Positions 2,710 through 17,135 of a stretch of DNA of 20,033 nt are shown here, piece by piece. The position numbers and the translations under genes are program-made. Source of the DNA: a virus; the IMG/VR virus record IMGVR_UViG_3300046001_011629, positions 1 to 20,033 of that record. One strand, given 5' to 3'. The notes below the pieces were generated by a model. That model saw only the letters and a program-made list of their open reading frames with translations. It ran no database searches and was not told the origin of the DNA. Each line of letters begins with the position of its first letter. The stretch's first letter is position 1.

Positions 2710-2738
2710 TTGTCACGGAAACGATCGTTCACTAGAAT
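2710..2738 (+). promoter_or_regulatory. Sigma70-type promoter of the repressor operon
   Basis: TTGTCA (2710-2715) and TAGAAT (2733-2738) are separated by exactly 17 bp, close to the sigma70 consensus. A start of transcription about seven bases beyond the -10 box falls at about 2745-2746, on the first base of the repressor GTG codon, so the message would have little or no leader. This is the clearest promoter-like sequence in the window. Confidence 0.65.
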
Positions 2739-2749
2739 CATTTCCGTGA
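2713..2749. promoter_or_regulatory. 9-bp inverted repeat spanning the repressor promoter
   Basis: TCACGGAAA (2713-2721) and TTTCCGTGA (2741-2749) are perfect inverted copies separated by 19 bp, with a smaller palindrome AACGATCGTT at 2720-2729. The arms cover the end of the -35 box and the predicted transcription start and GTG codon. A dimer bound here would occlude polymerase, so this is a second candidate operator. Which protein binds is not shown. Confidence 0.5.
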
Positions 2750-3333
2750 AGACAACTATTAAAGATCCCGAACACCTGACCAAACTGCAGGACTACTACG
2801 CCCAACACCGGGTGTTGCCTTCCTACACCCGGCTGATGCCGCTCTTGGGGTTCGCCTCCAAGTCCGGCATCAAAAAGGTACTGGAGCGGCTGGAAGCAGC
2901 GGGCATGCTGGAGCGCACCTCGGATGGCGACTGGTCCCCGACCGATCGCTTCTTTGAGCGTTCGATTGCCAACTTGCCCGTTGCCGCTGGCAAGCCCTTG
3001 CCAACGGCAGACGAGGGTGGTGAGCAAATGAATCTAGACCGCTTTTTGATCACCCGGCCCGGCAATACGGTGCTGTTGCGGGTCAAAGGCGACTCGATGA
3101 TCAATGCCGGAATCCACAGTGGGGACCTGGCTGTGATTGAGCGGCGCAGCCAAGCCGAGCCCGGAGAGGTGGTGGTCGCGGTCGTTGATGATGAATTCAC
3201 ACTCAAAACACTCGGACGAGACAAAGCCGGATATCACCTGCTTCCCGCCAACCCGGATTTCTCCATCATCCGGCCCAAAGGAACGCTTGAGATTTATGGG
3301 GTTTTGGTTGGCCTTGTGCGCAAATACACATGA
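2746..3333 (+). CDS. LexA/CI-like self-cleaving repressor
   Basis: A 195-aa protein with LexA architecture. Residues about 10-60 form a winged-helix DNA-binding domain (LPSYTRLMPLLGFASKSGIKKVLERLEAAGML). An Ala-Gly cleavage site fits at 81-82 (PVAAGKP), and an S24 peptidase domain follows with catalytic Ser117 in GDSM and Lys154 in FTLKTL. Such proteins repress phage or SOS genes and inactivate themselves when RecA filaments form after DNA damage, so DNA damage would be the inducing signal. I chose GTG at 2746. The upstream in-frame TTG at 2710 lies inside the promoter itself. No ribosome binding site precedes the GTG, which fits a leaderless transcript. The next gene starts 12 bases downstream. 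Because the gene sits beside an integrase cassette, it is more likely the phage repressor than the host lexA. Confidence 0.88.
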   Translation: MKTTIKDPEHLTKLQDYYAQHRVLPSYTRLMPLLGFASKSGIKKVLERLEAAGMLERTSDGDWSPTDRFFERSIANLPVAAGKPLPTADEGGEQMNLDRFLITRPGNTVLLRVKGDSMINAGIHSGDLAVIERRSQAEPGEVVVAVVDDEFTLKTLGRDKAGYHLLPANPDFSIIRPKGTLEIYGVLVGLVRKYT

Positions 3334-10171: not shown

Positions 10172-10926
10172 TGTTGGACTTCAACGCCCGCCCCAAAATT
10201 CAGGAGCAGATCAGCCAGCTCATTGATGCCGCGTTAACCCGTGAGCGTGCAGGCCAGACGCCGCGCGATTACCTAGGCGCATCACGCTTGGGCGTTTCAT
10301 GCGAGCGCGCGCTGCAATACGAATACACGCACACACCAGTGGACGACGGCCGTGATTTTTCAGGCCGCCTGCTGCGCATCTTTGAGGTCGGCCATACGCT
10401 CGAAGACCTGGCCATCCGCTGGTTACGCATGGCGGGGTTTGACCTGTACACGCGCAAAGTCCAAGGCGGTCAGTTTGGTTTTTCCGTGGCGGGTGGTCGC
10501 ATCCGGGGCCATGTCGACGGCATCTTGAACACCGGGCCGGCCGATCTTGGCGTGAGCTACCCGGCGCTGTGGGAGTTCAAGACCATGAACGACAAGTCCT
10601 GGCGGGATACCGTCAAGCACGGGGTGGGCAAGTCCAAGCCGGTCTATGCCGCGCAGGTTGCGGTTTATCAGGCTTATATGGAAGCCAGCATACCGGGCCT
10701 CTCGGCCAACCCGGCGCTTTTTACGGCCATCAACAAAGACACCCAGGAAATCTGGTTCGAGTTGCTGCCCTTTGACGGTGGGCTGGCGCAGCGCATGTCC
10801 GACCGCGCCGTGCGCGTGATCACCGCTACCAGCGCAAGCGAGGTCTTGCCACGTTTTGCCACCACACCGACCCACATGGAGTGCAAGTTCTGCGCGTGGC
10901 AGGACCGCTGCTGGGGGACTCAATGA
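10171..10926 (+). CDS. Cas4/RecB-like PD-(D/E)XK exonuclease
   Basis: A 251-aa nuclease. The active-site signature is His114 and Asp116 in GHVDG, Glu135-Phe-Lys137 (LWEFKTM), then Gln162 and Tyr166 in QVAVYQAY. Four cysteines fit a Cas4/AddB-type iron-sulphur cluster: Cys44 (GVSCERALQY) and Cys238, Cys241, Cys247 (ECKFCAWQDRC). Such enzymes resect double-stranded ends. With the Sak4-like ATPase this makes an exonuclease-plus-annealing pair analogous to lambda Red. ATG at 10171 shares its first base with the previous stop (TGATG); a GTG at 10168 adds one residue and is equally possible. There is no CRISPR array or other cas gene, so it is a phage enzyme rather than part of an adaptation module. 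Confidence 0.85.
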   Translation: MLDFNARPKIQEQISQLIDAALTRERAGQTPRDYLGASRLGVSCERALQYEYTHTPVDDGRDFSGRLLRIFEVGHTLEDLAIRWLRMAGFDLYTRKVQGGQFGFSVAGGRIRGHVDGILNTGPADLGVSYPALWEFKTMNDKSWRDTVKHGVGKSKPVYAAQVAVYQAYMEASIPGLSANPALFTAINKDTQEIWFELLPFDGGLAQRMSDRAVRVITATSASEVLPRFATTPTHMECKFCAWQDRCWGTQ

Positions 10927-13124
10927 CAGCTGACAACATCGCTTGGCTGGACTACAACAACGCCCCCGAACAAAGGCTGGAATCAGCGGCTGACACGCAG
11001 GCGCTGCGTGATGGTCTGCTGGACCGGCTCGAGTCGGTGCTGCTGTACTTGTTTCCCAGTGGCCGCTTTCGCGGCAACAAGTTCTATGTCGGCGACATTG
11101 ATGGCGCGCCGGGCAAGAGCCTGGTGGTGGAACTTGATGGTCCCCGGCGCGGGCTTTGGAAGGATTTCGCCGATGACGATGGCGGCGACCTGATCGCAGC
11201 CTGGGCCAAGTCACGGGGGCTGTCGACGCAGCAAGACTTTCCGCGCATCGCCGATGAAATCCGGCAGTGGCTTGGCTTTGCGCCACCGGTGGACCATGGG
11301 GCCAGACGCGACAGGCGAGATATAGGAACGATCCCCATGGACGAGCTGGGTCCCTACACCGCCAAGTGGGACTATGTCGGTATTGATGGGGCGCTGATTG
11401 CCTGCGTCTACCGCTACGACCCACCATCGGGCAAGGAGTTCAGGCCGTGGGATGTGCGCGCGCGGATGTGGCGTGCCCCCGATCCGCGTCCGCTTTACAA
11501 CCTGCCAGCGTTGATGACGGCCCGCACCGTGATCCTGGTCGAGGGGGAAAAGTGCGCCGATGCTTTGATCGGCGCAGGCATTGTGGCCACCACCGCCATG
11601 AACGGTGCCAAAGCACCGGTGGACAAAACCGACTGGTCTGCGCTCAAAAACAAAGATGTGCTGATCTGGCCGGACCGCGACGCGCCGGGCTGGGACTATG
11701 CCGAGAGCGCTGCACGCGCTTGCGCGGCCGTGGGCTGCCAGTCGGTGTCCATCCTCGTACCGCCCGGTGACAAACCGCTCAAATGGGACGCCGCCGACGC
11801 AGCGCTGGAAGGTTTTGATTGCGCCGCCTTCATCGCGCAGGCTGAACGCCGTGTTGTGAAAGCTGCGGCGCCCATGGTGCCTTTTTTCACATTGGGCGCG
11901 TTGCTCGATGATGACTCGCCGCTGCCCGAAGATTTGATTGAGCCGCGCGTGCTGACCCCGGGCGGCTTGCTGGTCTTTGGTGGTGCGCCCAAGGTGGGTA
12001 AGAGCGACTTCCTGCTGGCCTGGCTCACCCACATGGCCGCCGGTGCATCGTTTTTGGGGATGAGGCCACCGCGGCCACTGCGGGTGTTTTATTTGCAAGC
12101 AGAGGTCCAGTACCACTACCTGCGCGAGCGGGTGAAGGGCATTCGCCTCTCGCCAGAACACCTGAAGTTGGCGCGCACCAACTTCATGGCCACGCCGCAG
12201 CTGCGCCTGATTCTGGACGACGACGGGCTGGCGCAGGTCATCCCGGCCATGGCGGCAGCCTTCAACGGTTTGACGCCCGACATCATCGTGATCGACCCGA
12301 TCCGCAACGTATTTGACGGGGGCGACGCAGGCGGCGAGAACGACAACGGCGCGATGCTCTACTTCTTGTCGCAGCGCGTGGAGCGCATTCGCCAAGCGGT
12401 GAATCCTGAGGCAGGCGTGATCCTGGCGCACCACACCAAAAAGCTGGGCAAGCGCCAGTTTGAGGAAGACCCGTTTCAGGCCTTAGCAGGTGCTGGCAGC
12501 CTGCGCGGCTACTACTCGTCTGGGATGCTGCTGTTTCGCCCCGATGAGGCGCAATCCACCCGCCACCTGATCTACGAGCTGCGCAACGGCCCGGCCATTG
12601 AGACCAAGTTCGTCGACAAGATGGACGGCCAGTGGCACGAGGTCGATGTCAATGACAGGTTGGTGCTCAAAGAGTACGGCGAGCGGCTCGATGCCGAGCG
12701 CAGGCGAAAGCGCGATGCCATTTTGCAGATCCTCTTTGAGGAAGCGGCGCATGGGCGCTGCTACACCGCCAATCAGCTCGCTGAGTCCTTTGAGGGCAAG
12801 GCCGGTCTGGGCGGCGAGCGCACGATCCGGGAGCGGATCTCGGCCCTGTCCACGCAGGGCTACATCAAGTTTTTCCGCAACAACGCGGACTACGCACTGC
12901 CCTCGATTGGGCGCTCCAAGTTTGGCTACCTGTGTGTCGAGGGCATGGTCCTGAACACGCCGGCAGACGAGCCCGATCCAGACACCGGCGAGCTGCTTCT
13001 TCGCGCACTCGCAGTGCTGCCAACCCACTACAAATGCCCGCAATCCGGGGCCGCGATGCCCGTCGAAAACCCGGATGTGTGGGTGTACCAAGAAATTAGC
13101 AACAACCCGCAGGAGTACGAATGA
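10923..13124 (+). CDS. Primase-helicase (Toprim plus RepA-type ATPase)
   Basis: A 733-aa replication protein. The N-terminal 100 residues (SGRFRGNKFYVGDIDG, RRGLWKDFADDDGGD) resemble the leading domain of phage primases. A Toprim domain follows at about 200-280, with Glu208 in VEGEK and Asp251/Asp253 in WPDRDAPG. The ATPase part is of the hexameric RepA/AAA_25 type: GGAPKVGKSD at 353-362 (Walker A), DIIVIDPI at 453-460 (Walker B) and LAHHTKK near 501. The last 180 residues look like winged-helix DNA-binding sequence (YTANQLAESF, RTIRERISALSTQGYIKF). It would prime and unwind at the phage origin. ATG at 10923 overlaps the nuclease stop (ATGA) behind a GGGGGA. A repeat array that may be the origin begins about 160 bp downstream. 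Confidence 0.88.
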   Translation: MTADNIAWLDYNNAPEQRLESAADTQALRDGLLDRLESVLLYLFPSGRFRGNKFYVGDIDGAPGKSLVVELDGPRRGLWKDFADDDGGDLIAAWAKSRGLSTQQDFPRIADEIRQWLGFAPPVDHGARRDRRDIGTIPMDELGPYTAKWDYVGIDGALIACVYRYDPPSGKEFRPWDVRARMWRAPDPRPLYNLPALMTARTVILVEGEKCADALIGAGIVATTAMNGAKAPVDKTDWSALKNKDVLIWPDRDAPGWDYAESAARACAAVGCQSVSILVPPGDKPLKWDAADAALEGFDCAAFIAQAERRVVKAAAPMVPFFTLGALLDDDSPLPEDLIEPRVLTPGGLLVFGGAPKVGKSDFLLAWLTHMAAGASFLGMRPPRPLRVFYLQAEVQYHYLRERVKGIRLSPEHLKLARTNFMATPQLRLILDDDGLAQVIPAMAAAFNGLTPDIIVIDPIRNVFDGGDAGGENDNGAMLYFLSQRVERIRQAVNPEAGVILAHHTKKLGKRQFEEDPFQALAGAGSLRGYYSSGMLLFRPDEAQSTRHLIYELRNGPAIETKFVDKMDGQWHEVDVNDRLVLKEYGERLDAERRRKRDAILQILFEEAAHGRCYTANQLAESFEGKAGLGGERTIRERISALSTQGYIKFFRNNADYALPSIGRSKFGYLCVEGMVLNTPADEPDPDTGELLLRALAVLPTHYKCPQSGAAMPVENPDVWVYQEISNNPQEYE

Positions 13125-13603
13125 ACACGATTTGCCAAGATAGAACCCGCACGAGTGCGGCGTTGTCAGACGCCCGCATTGACCCGCACCACTGCGCAAA
13201 CGCCCGCAATGGCTATGCGTTAGCAGCGGCTGGCATGGGCCCGCAGCAGCACGCGGGGACCCGCCGCAGTTTGCGGAAACAAGTTGGCAAAAGTTTTGCC
13301 AACTGGACCCCACTTTTTGCCAACTGGATTCAGTTGGCAGACCCTTGCCAACTTCATTCCCATATAAATCAAGCACTTAGCTCGAAGTTGGCAAGTTGGC
13401 AAGTTGGCAAATCCAAAAACGCTGCCAACTTGCCAACTGGCCGCAAACCCGCATGGATGCTGGGTTCTCAAAAAATTTCAGTTGGAGAAAACTCCCCTCT
13501 CCCTACGGGAGAGGTGGACACCCCCGACTTAGGTCGGAGTGTCCGCCTCGTTCTCGAATCCCGTTTGGTGGTTCAGCTCATGGGAGGCCGTCATCATGGC
13601 TAA
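13121..13603 (+). CDS. Doubtful hypothetical reading frame over the repeat region
   Basis: A 160-codon frame with a good start: ATG at 13121 overlaps the primase-helicase stop (ATGA), with AGGAG five bases upstream. The protein, however, looks unlike a folded domain. Residues 55-110 only translate the AGTTGGCA array (FANWTPLFANW, LASWQVGK), and the rest crosses two hairpins before ending inside the RuvC-like gene. Either a short leader-like peptide is really translated from this start, or the whole frame is non-coding DNA that happens to stay open. I keep it because the start signals are strong, but I favour the DNA repeats as the real function of this stretch. Confidence 0.35.
   Translation: MNTICQDRTRTSAALSDARIDPHHCANARNGYALAAAGMGPQQHAGTRRSLRKQVGKSFANWTPLFANWIQLADPCQLHSHINQALSSKLASWQVGKSKNAANLPTGRKPAWMLGSQKISVGENSPLPTGEVDTPDLGRSVRLVLESRLVVQLMGGRHHG
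13282..13438. repeat. Ten-copy AGTTGGCA iteron-like array, candidate replication origin
   Basis: The octamer AGTTGGCA occurs ten times within 157 bp. Forward copies start at 13282, 13332, 13386, 13394 and 13402; inverted copies (TGCCAACT) start at 13297, 13318, 13346, 13423 and 13431. The first pair forms a perfect 11-bp inverted repeat around a single G (13282-13304). The third and fourth form a 9-bp inverted repeat with a 4-bp gap (13318-13339). Copies 6-8 are tandem with an 8-bp period, as are copies 9-10 in inverse orientation. A 32-bp repeat-free gap (13354-13385) holds the AT-rich CATATAAATC. Iterons plus an AT-rich stretch just after a primase-helicase gene suggest the phage origin. 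A regulator binding array is the alternative. Confidence 0.7.
13496..13544 (+). other. Two tandem hairpins before the RuvC-like gene
   Basis: The first hairpin has an 8-bp perfect stem, CCTCTCCC / GGGAGAGG, with loop TAC (13496-13514). The second, two bases on, pairs GGACAC with GTGTCC and CCGAC with GTCGG around TTAG (13516-13544). Neither is followed by a run of T, so they are not ordinary terminators. They may be part of the origin, an RNA processing site, or a leader structure for the gene at 13596. Confidence 0.5.
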
Positions 13604-14126
13604 AACCATCGTCTTGGCGATCGACCTGGGAACGACGACCGGTTGGGCACTGCGATCCAAAGATGGCCAGATCGCGCACGGCTTTGCCAGCTTCAAGCCC
13701 CAGCGGTTTGAGGGCGGCGGTATGCGTTACCTGCGCTTTAAACGCTGGCTCACAGAAATCAAAGCTCTGGCCACCGATATCCACGCCGTCTATTTCGAGG
13801 AAGTGCGCCGTCACGCCGGGGTGGACGCGGCCCATGTCTACGGCGGCTTGATGGCCACGCTCACGACCTGGTGCGAGCACCACAACATCGCCTACCAAGG
13901 TGTGCCTGTCGGCACGATCAAAAAACACGCCACCGGCAAAGGCAACGCTGGCAAGGGCGAAGTGATTGCCGCCATGCGCCGGCTAGGCCACCCGGTCACC
14001 GATGACAACGAGGCCGATGCCTTGGCCTTGCTGCATTGGGCCATCGACACACAAGAGCCGGACCAACAAGAGTCGGACCAGCACCAAACAGACCAAAACC
14101 AACCAGACGAAGGAGCCGCCGTATGA
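13596..14126 (+). CDS. RuvC-like Holliday junction nuclease
   Basis: A 176-aa RNase H-fold nuclease of the RuvC type. The acidic active site can be read as Asp10 (LAIDLGTTTGWAL), Glu68/Glu69 (VYFEEVRRHAG) and Asp141 (DNEADALALLHWA). VGTIKKHATGKGNAGK is the usual basic stretch before the last motif. It would cut four-way junctions or branched DNA made by the recombination genes upstream, clearing DNA before packaging. The frame is open further upstream, but ATG at 13596 has GGGAGG eight bases before it and gives a normal N-terminus. The C-terminal 25 residues are a glutamine/aspartate-rich, low-complexity tail made by a short degenerate repeat. It overlaps the next gene at ATGA. Confidence 0.85.
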   Translation: MAKTIVLAIDLGTTTGWALRSKDGQIAHGFASFKPQRFEGGGMRYLRFKRWLTEIKALATDIHAVYFEEVRRHAGVDAAHVYGGLMATLTTWCEHHNIAYQGVPVGTIKKHATGKGNAGKGEVIAAMRRLGHPVTDDNEADALALLHWAIDTQEPDQQESDQHQTDQNQPDEGAAV

Positions 14127-14923: not shown

Positions 14924-14938
14924 CGTTTGCGAAGCAGT

Positions 14939-16195
14939 ATGAAGTCCACCCTCAAAATCCAATACCGGCCGATCGAGTCCCTGATCCCTTATGCCCGAAA
15001 TGCCAAGCTGCACTCGGACGCGCATGTGGCACAGATCGCGGCCAGCATCACCGAGTTTGGCTGGGGTGCACCCATCTTGGTGGACGGACAAAACAACGTC
15101 ATCGCTGGTCACGGCCGTTTGCTTGCTGCGCGCAAGCTCGGCATGCCCGAGGTGCCCGTCGTAGCCATGGAACACCTGACCGAGATCCAGCGCAAGGCAC
15201 TGATCTTGGCAGACAACAAGATCGGCGAGAACGCCTCCTGGGATGATGACCTGCTGGGCCTTGAACTGGCCGAGTTGCAGGAAGCTGGCTTTGATCTGGG
15301 CCTCACCGGCTTTACCGCCGAAGAGTGGGACAAACTCATTGCGGGCGATCCTAGCAACGACGGCCTGACCGACGAAGACCAGGCACCCGAGGTGGCCGAG
15401 ACAGCCGTCTCCCAAACCGGCGACATCTGGGTCCTTGGCGAGCACAAGCTGCTGTGTGGCGATGCCACCAAGGCAGAAGATTACAAGGCGCTGCTGGGCG
15501 ATGAACTGGTGGACATGACCGCCACTGATCCGCCCTACAACGTCAACTACGCCAACACGGCCAAGGACAAGATGCGCGGCAAGGACCGTCCCATTCTCAA
15601 CGACAACATGGGTGCTGACTTCGCGGGATTTTTGCAGGCGGCATGCCAAAACATTCTGGACGTCACCAAGGGTGCGGTCTACATCGCCATGAGCTCCTCC
15701 GAGCTCGATACCTTGCAGGCAGCTTTTCGCGCCGCAGGAGGCAAGTGGTCTACCTTCATCATCTGGGCCAAGAACACTTTCACCATGGGCCGCGCCGATT
15801 ACCAGCGCCAGTACGAGCCCATCCTTTACGGCTGGAAAGACGGTGCCCAGCACTACTGGTGCGGTGCACGCGACCAGGGTGATGTGTGGCACATCAAGAA
15901 GCCGCACAAGAACGACCTGCACCCGACTATGAAGCCGGTGGAGTTGATGGAGCGTGCGGTGCGCAATAGCAGCAAAACACGAGACATCGTGCTGGACCCG
16001 TTTGGCGGCTCTGGCACCACCCTGATCGCCTGCGAAAAGTCGGGCCGTCGTGCCCGGCTCATTGAGCTCGATCCCAAATACTGCGACGTCATAGTTTCTC
16101 GCTGGGAATCTTTTACCGGGCAGGAAGCCCGACTTTCAGGTGGCGCCTTGACGTTTTCTGTTGTGACAAAGCAGCGCTGTATCGAACCCGTTTGA
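14939..16195 (+). CDS. ParB-domain DNA methyltransferase (orphan, beta-type order)
   Basis: A 418-aa fusion. Residues 5-100 are a ParB/Srx-like domain (IESLIPYARNAKLHSDAHVAQI and VIAGHGRLLAARKLG at 54-68). Residues 165-395 are an adenine/N4-cytosine methyltransferase with DPPY at 197-200, the SAM-binding DPFGGSGT at 353-360 and ARLIELDPKYCDVIVSRW after it. The catalytic motif comes before the SAM motif, as in the beta class. No restriction gene is adjacent, so it probably modifies phage DNA against host enzymes or affects packaging or regulation. ATG at 14939 fits the family start; only a weak GAAG precedes it, and a terminator ends 15 bases upstream. Such ParB-methyltransferase genes are common just before phage terminase genes. 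Confidence 0.9.
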   Translation: MKSTLKIQYRPIESLIPYARNAKLHSDAHVAQIAASITEFGWGAPILVDGQNNVIAGHGRLLAARKLGMPEVPVVAMEHLTEIQRKALILADNKIGENASWDDDLLGLELAELQEAGFDLGLTGFTAEEWDKLIAGDPSNDGLTDEDQAPEVAETAVSQTGDIWVLGEHKLLCGDATKAEDYKALLGDELVDMTATDPPYNVNYANTAKDKMRGKDRPILNDNMGADFAGFLQAACQNILDVTKGAVYIAMSSSELDTLQAAFRAAGGKWSTFIIWAKNTFTMGRADYQRQYEPILYGWKDGAQHYWCGARDQGDVWHIKKPHKNDLHPTMKPVELMERAVRNSSKTRDIVLDPFGGSGTTLIACEKSGRRARLIELDPKYCDVIVSRWESFTGQEARLSGGALTFSVVTKQRCIEPV

Positions 16196-16876: not shown

Positions 16877-17135
16877 GATCGCGGTAGAAATTCTCGTGCG
16901 GGCCCACCATCAAAAGTTTGAGGGTGTTCTCATCAAGCATCCGGTAGGCAAGTAGGCACAAAAGTTGACCCATACGGAATTTATAGATCTGCACTCCTGC
17001 CAAGTCACCGACTTTGGTTTCTCCAATTTCAGGCTGACCTGTGACTGCGCGTACGGCATCGTCAAGAGCAGACTTTTGGCTCTGGTGTAATTTTTTGACC
17101 GTACGCTCAAATGTAGGGGTAACGAGAATGCGCAT
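16857..17135 (-). CDS. RelE/ParE-family toxin
   Basis: A 92-aa toxin of the RelE/ParE superfamily. Typical features are FERTVKKLHQSQKSALDDAV in the helical N-terminus, VQIYKFRMGQLLCLLAYR in the strands and the C-terminal GPHENFYRDLKR. RelE-like members cut mRNA on the ribosome; ParE-like ones poison gyrase. The C-terminal signature fits the RelE-like branch better, but the target cannot be told from sequence alone. Its ATG shares one base with the antitoxin stop (TGATG at 17135), the usual coupling. Antitoxin first, toxin second is the normal order. Confidence 0.85.
   Translation of the reverse strand: MRILVTPTFERTVKKLHQSQKSALDDAVRAVTGQPEIGETKVGDLAGVQIYKFRMGQLLCLLAYRMLDENTLKLLMVGPHENFYRDLKRLGS

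Follow-up and report, generated by a model that had tools for sequence, protein, structure and literature searches.

An octamer array that covaries with the winged helix of an adjacent primase-helicase is a probable replication origin of temperate phages

INTRODUCTION

Modules that join a primase and a helicase to repeated DNA sites are the closest described counterparts of the locus analyzed here, an array of octamers between a primase-helicase gene and a resolvase gene in an IMG/VR virus record (IMGVR_UViG_3300046001_011629, 20,033 bases; this whole stretch is referred to as the window). As outlined in a passage of PMC4234260 (citing Ziegelin and Lanka 1995 and Yeo et al. 2002), P4 alpha unites in a single polypeptide a Toprim-type primase, a helicase, and a C-terminal winged helix that binds the origin repeats. 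In the pri-rep-ori modules of phage-inducible chromosomal islands (PICIs) of the Staphylococcus aureus pathogenicity island (SaPI) type, primase and initiator are sometimes fused, the origin is located immediately 3′ of the gene, and its AT-rich center is flanked by two sets of iterons (PMC6092414). The RSF1010 RepA/RepB′/RepC system combines a RepA-type helicase, a primase partner, and oriV iterons (PMC4234260).

Like P4 alpha and its ori, the window protein carries a Toprim-like primase, a helicase, and a C-terminal winged helix, the last a predicted repeat binder, in one polypeptide. The P4 alpha motor belongs to helicase superfamily 3 (SF3), whereas the window protein has a RecA-type RepA/AAA_25 ATPase for its motor; the two systems also differ in their repeat and in how it is arranged, and an integration host factor (IHF)-like site lies at the center here. 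As in PICI modules, the window array lies directly 3′ of the gene, with two repeat sets around an AT-richer center. Unlike in PICIs, the helicase is of the RecA type, the element is a full temperate phage and not a satellite, the octamers occur in both orientations, and the center carries an IHF-like consensus. With RSF1010, the window shares a RepA-type helicase with a primase, plus repeats, but RSF1010 uses a separate iteron-binding initiator, RepC, whereas the DNA-binding domain here is part of the helicase. By analogy, the family appears to follow the logic of P4 alpha and PICIs, built on a RecA-type helicase with a central IHF-like site. We consider it highly probable that the array is the temperate phage's replication origin and that the primase-helicase encoded upstream is its initiator, with its winged helix binding each octamer.

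RESULTS AND DISCUSSION

An octamer array in a conserved frame

Ten exact copies of AGTTGGCA, five per strand, lie within positions 13282 to 13438 of the window, 158 bp downstream of the primase-helicase stop at 13124. Dinucleotide shuffles of the whole window contained on average 0.97 copies and at most 4, confirming the ten octamers in 157 bp and in both orientations that had been reported in an earlier note on this DNA; an isolated eleventh copy was found at 2967. The left half-array (13282 to 13353) contains octamers in the order + − − + − (13282, 13297, 13318, 13332, and 13346), and the right half-array (13386 to 13438) contains three on the + strand (13386, 13394, and 13402) followed by two on the − strand (13423 and 13431), with the same slots used in relatives. 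The 11-bp inverted repeat recognized earlier is real (13282 to 13292/13294 to 13304), but longer perfect ones had been overlooked, of 16 bp (13386 to 13401/13423 to 13438) and 12 bp (13344 to 13355/13384 to 13395).

Relatives were gathered by a primase-helicase search and a repeat search, which converged on the same loci; the relatives comprised 254 distinct loci. A repeat array was present at the same place in 222 of these and persisted there down to 35 to 50% protein identity. In most relatives, it spans exactly 148 bp with identical slots; across 109 distinct AGTTGGCA arrays in this fixed 148-bp frame, octamer slots were 95% identical, compared with approximately 64% for the left spacers. 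Repeats are thus kept while spacers drift, the comparison that the earlier note had proposed for this interval. In distant relatives, the octamer drifts to AGTTTGCA, AGATTGCA, AGAATCCA, or AGTTGGGA, with its position unchanged. Hosts named in the genome records included Limnohabitans (95% identity), Polynucleobacter, Pseudomonas, Ectothiorhodospira, Methylococcus, Rhodospirillales, and Endozoicomonas; Limnohabitans sp. 15K is one isolate among the carriers.

The two runs with an 8-bp period noted previously are present in the window, but the period varies in relatives, where successive right-half copies are spaced by 7 in 55 pairs, 8 in 26, and 9 in 10. Because relatives mostly space copies 7 apart, conservation does not extend to the 8-bp period, and the argument built on it about helix face and strand opening finds no support. 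What stays constant is the overall frame, together with the location of the central IHF-like site. The array is also unlike classic plasmid iterons, direct repeats of about 20 bp in helical phase, in having 8-bp units in both orientations with a tandem spacing of 7 to 9.

Residues of the winged helix change in step with bases of the octamer

An AlphaFold model of residues 592 to 747 of the primase-helicase (predicted local distance difference test [pLDDT], 83) displayed a winged helix, the proposed octamer reader, at approximately residues 605 to 688 (12693 to 12944, + strand). Its recognition helix comprises residues 646 to 659 (12816 to 12857, + strand; R647 codon, 12819 to 12821; R650 codon, 12828 to 12830) and is preceded by a helix at residues 630 to 636. 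The best structural matches of this model in the VIA list were winged-helix domains at a weak Z of about 5 to 6; Foldseek alone gave no match below 0.001. Searched by sequence against solved structures, the C terminus gave no match below an E value of 0.5 (the best, 9rmi at 0.51, was not credible), and the whole protein gave no credible match. A full-protein model was poor (pLDDT, 64) and was not used.

Among 83 non-redundant arrays, 45 paired Arg at residue 650 with G at base 5, and none paired any other residue with G; 2 had Arg with T, and the remaining 36 had another residue with T or C. At the level of the recognition-helix motif, TIRER accompanied G at base 5, TINER accompanied T, GRSTIAER accompanied AGAATCCA, and GKDTIRER accompanied AGTTGGGA. 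The same was evident within a close trio, L269 (ANRTIRER with AGTTGGCA), L321 (ANRTINER with AGTTTGCA), and L288 (AQRTINDR with AGATTGCA).

On a tree built from the helicase core, with the C terminus excluded, base 5 changed at least 11 times and R650 10 times. All supported independent pairs were concordant or neutral; these number five, which alone cannot reach a P of 0.05. When path-disjoint pairs with unlike bases at position 5 were compared, residue 650 differed in 11 of 11, against 16% in matched controls, and ranked top of 687 columns. Residues 630 and 631, at the start of helix 2 (12768 to 12773, + strand), covary with base 4; residue 631 differed in all nine path-disjoint pairs for that base (control, 14%). 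Residue 647 differed in four of five pairs for base 6 and in five of six for base 7; few independent changes underlie this part of the code, and for these two bases comparable, occasionally higher, scores are reached by some columns outside the winged helix. Column 745 ranked high for bases 3 to 5 and was set aside as a gap-rich C-terminal column. In RuvC, taken as a control protein, the best column reached 0.17 for base 5, compared with 0.64 for residue 650.

The rule relating residue 650 to base 5 was then applied to loci from two further scans that had not been used to derive it, limited to arrays that contained four or more exact copies and exceeded shuffles by 1.5 or more. Counted by hand, it held in 33 of 36 new arrays; the misfits in fixed register were L590, L605, and L681, of which the latter two conform when the register of the unit is moved on by one base. 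Since most of the new arrays belong to one clade, this constitutes a modest test. Because single residues change in step with single bases, and RuvC columns do not track base 5, we conclude from these sequence comparisons that the array coevolves with the winged helix of the adjacent primase-helicase and that this protein itself very probably binds it. The link between array and primase-helicase, previously drawn by position only, is thereby extended to a specific domain.

A predicted IHF site separates the half-arrays

The central spacer (13354 to 13385) is 62% AT, compared with 42% for the window, and contains the sole exact match in the window to the IHF consensus WATCAANNNNTTR (AATCAAGCACTTA, 13367 to 13379, + strand). 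This site, at frame offset 85 between the half-arrays, retained 8 or 9 of 9 consensus positions in 91 of the 109 arrays, compared with 3.7% of shuffled centers, while its four N positions vary freely. Among arrays with other repeats, an IHF-like match was present in 42 of 62 (15% expected). The match at a conserved place marks this as a predicted IHF site.

The array follows the helicase module

Loci that lack a detectable homologue of the window primase and have a homologous helicase and C terminus still contain an array of the family. The AGTTGGCA array was found in none of 23 loci retrieved by primase similarity (two of them truncated, and one, L384, combining the RecA-type helicase with a repeat of its own), nor in Acidithiobacillus phage AcaML1. 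The array therefore follows the helicase module. Some of these loci carry another repeat at the same spot (CGTTGCCA, CGTTCCCA, or TCTGACGG); in AcaML1, TCTGACGG occurs in inverted sets (L084:9934-10030). AcaML1 shares the primase and has a D5/SF3-type helicase, with D5_N detected by Pfam, versus AAA_25 in the window protein; the D5_N/SF3-type domain expected of a P4 alpha homologue was not detected in the latter by Pfam. In L385, L386, L388, and L395, relatives that share only the primase, CGTTNCCA-like repeats lie at the same spot downstream of the primase gene.

The RepA protein of Wolbachia phage WO (WOVitB) is 33 to 35% identical to the window protein and has the helix GSERSIRER. Directly after RepA come AGTTGGCA/AGATGGCA sites on either side of an exact IHF consensus, and then a TA-rich run; KX522565 shows the same (WOVitB and KX522565, L334:5115-5322 and L335:5792-5999), and such an array is absent from WO variant MN180253. 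The available text of the WO paper does not describe the array after RepA as an origin. We offer it, from its sequence, as a candidate WO origin.

Proposed initiation at the array and its implications

P4 alpha binds its origin repeats by a winged helix, and PICI origins sit 3′ of the initiator gene; on these grounds, we propose that the array is an origin at which the helicase loads itself. The C-terminal winged helix would bind each AGTTGGCA octamer, with R650 reading base 5, residue 647 reading bases 6 and 7, and residue 631 helping to read base 4, as covariation suggests. A bend at the central IHF-like site may then bring together the five left sites and four or five right sites. By analogy with P4 alpha and PICI origins, several helicase-primase subunits would thus be placed on one site, the AT-richer center or nearby DNA could melt more easily with the assembled subunits, and a ring would be loaded that unwinds and primes without a separate initiator. 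The origin assignment made in the earlier note is supported by relatives that keep the repeats and by the lack of a codon-conserved protein across them, with initiation itself probable by that analogy. Open-licence literature was searched for AGTTGGCA in the role of an origin motif, with no relevant hit among the ten papers listed of 1,281.

Several observations weigh against this interpretation. No significant array was detected by the finder used in 32 of the 254 loci. In GC skew and AT profiles of five relatives of 41 to 43 kb, the skew did not consistently point to the array, and no strong AT-rich melting region was seen in the window. Some members of a K646-D647 clade (e.g., L482 and L590) have R650 and yet T at base 5, mostly in weak arrays.

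We know of no assigned origin for most uncultured temperate phages. It is reasonably likely that temperate phages of a widespread family in Proteobacteria, some Wolbachia phage WO among them, replicate from an origin that is read by their helicase and has a repeat predictable from residues 650 (base 5), 647 (bases 6 and 7), and 631 (base 4), with IHF as the bending factor. If so, origins and incompatibility groups could be read from sequence. Across hundreds of phages, sequence alone suffices here to pair one protein domain with one DNA array, which yields an amino acid-to-base recognition code that can be tested. The family would also display stepwise change of origin specificity in phages.

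Alternative functions of the array

Covariation tells who binds the array, not why. The winged helix might bind for control and not for initiation, with the array serving as an operator of the downstream resolvase operon or as a handcuffing or copy-control site, like P4 crr or plasmid incompatibility iterons, and the true origin lying elsewhere. The 16-bp inverted repeats could form a hairpin, and terminator-like hairpins occur on the − strand, which would suit such a role. Against this, PICI origins are found at this very position, 3′ of the initiator gene (PMC6092414), and a promoter scan found no sigma-70-like promoter at 13000 to 13700. Furthermore, octamers in 14 longer records cluster only at this array, apart from scattered singles and an exception in G002. 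We therefore regard a purely regulatory site as unlikely. The extra group in G002 (16959-17001; L141, L148, and L166) is a small set of three octamers positioned after the helicase gene and ahead of the main array. Separately, four AGTTGGCA copies precede a ParA-like gene at L096:13814-13977, where the contig stretch contains no relative of the window helicase.

Initiation at the array is also to be preferred to partition. P1 parS has two half-sites with IHF between them, which the half-arrays around the IHF-like site recall, and ParB-like PHROG matches occur in the window, in a ParB-like domain fused to an N6/N4 DNA methyltransferase (14927 to 16195). A centromere read by such a ParB-type protein is nevertheless very improbable, as the octamer changed together with the helicase winged helix in all 11 independent contrasts, in a comparison covering the primase-helicase.

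A repeat inside a coding gene can be given hardly any weight. An open frame (13121 to 13603), whose ATG overlaps the helicase stop, extends across the array and is likewise uninterrupted in 14 close relatives, in 8 of which (L008, L009, and L012 to L017) it runs in frame into the resolvase. However, differences in the 161 nucleotides preceding the array are spread almost evenly over codon positions (464/502/577), unlike those in the helicase (562/432/2316), so that the frame has no coding signature, and in most relatives the array begins 22 to 25 bp past the helicase stop. The array region is thus judged noncoding from its sequence, in agreement with the earlier note. Similarly negligible is an integration (attP with arm sites and IHF) or packaging site: short repeated sites with an IHF-like site resemble lambda attP, which has both, but the integrase gene lies 11 kb away on the opposite strand, and the array covaries with the helicase, not with the integrase.

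Gene neighborhood

The primase-helicase (10881 to 13124, + strand; 747 amino acids) matched PHROG 239 (DNA primase/helicase; 2.9e-67) and Pfam AAA_25 (4.2e-22); the Toprim match in Pfam was below threshold (0.0013), with EGEK and DxD motifs present in the sequence. Primase and helicase are thus united in one protein, and no second replication initiator was recognized among the window proteins scanned. Rfam matched no RNA family. Outside the array region, the gene content is that of a temperate phage, with a serine-type integrase (441 to 1883, − strand), a CI/UmuD-like repressor (2710 to 3330), a Sak4-like protein, a Cas4-like exonuclease, and a terminase small subunit. Downstream of the array lies the RuvC-like Holliday junction resolvase gene (13596 to 14126, + strand; PHROG 159, 3.6e-34 on 13539 to 14126). 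GC-rich hairpins, possibly a terminator, occur between the array and this gene at 13496 to 13545.
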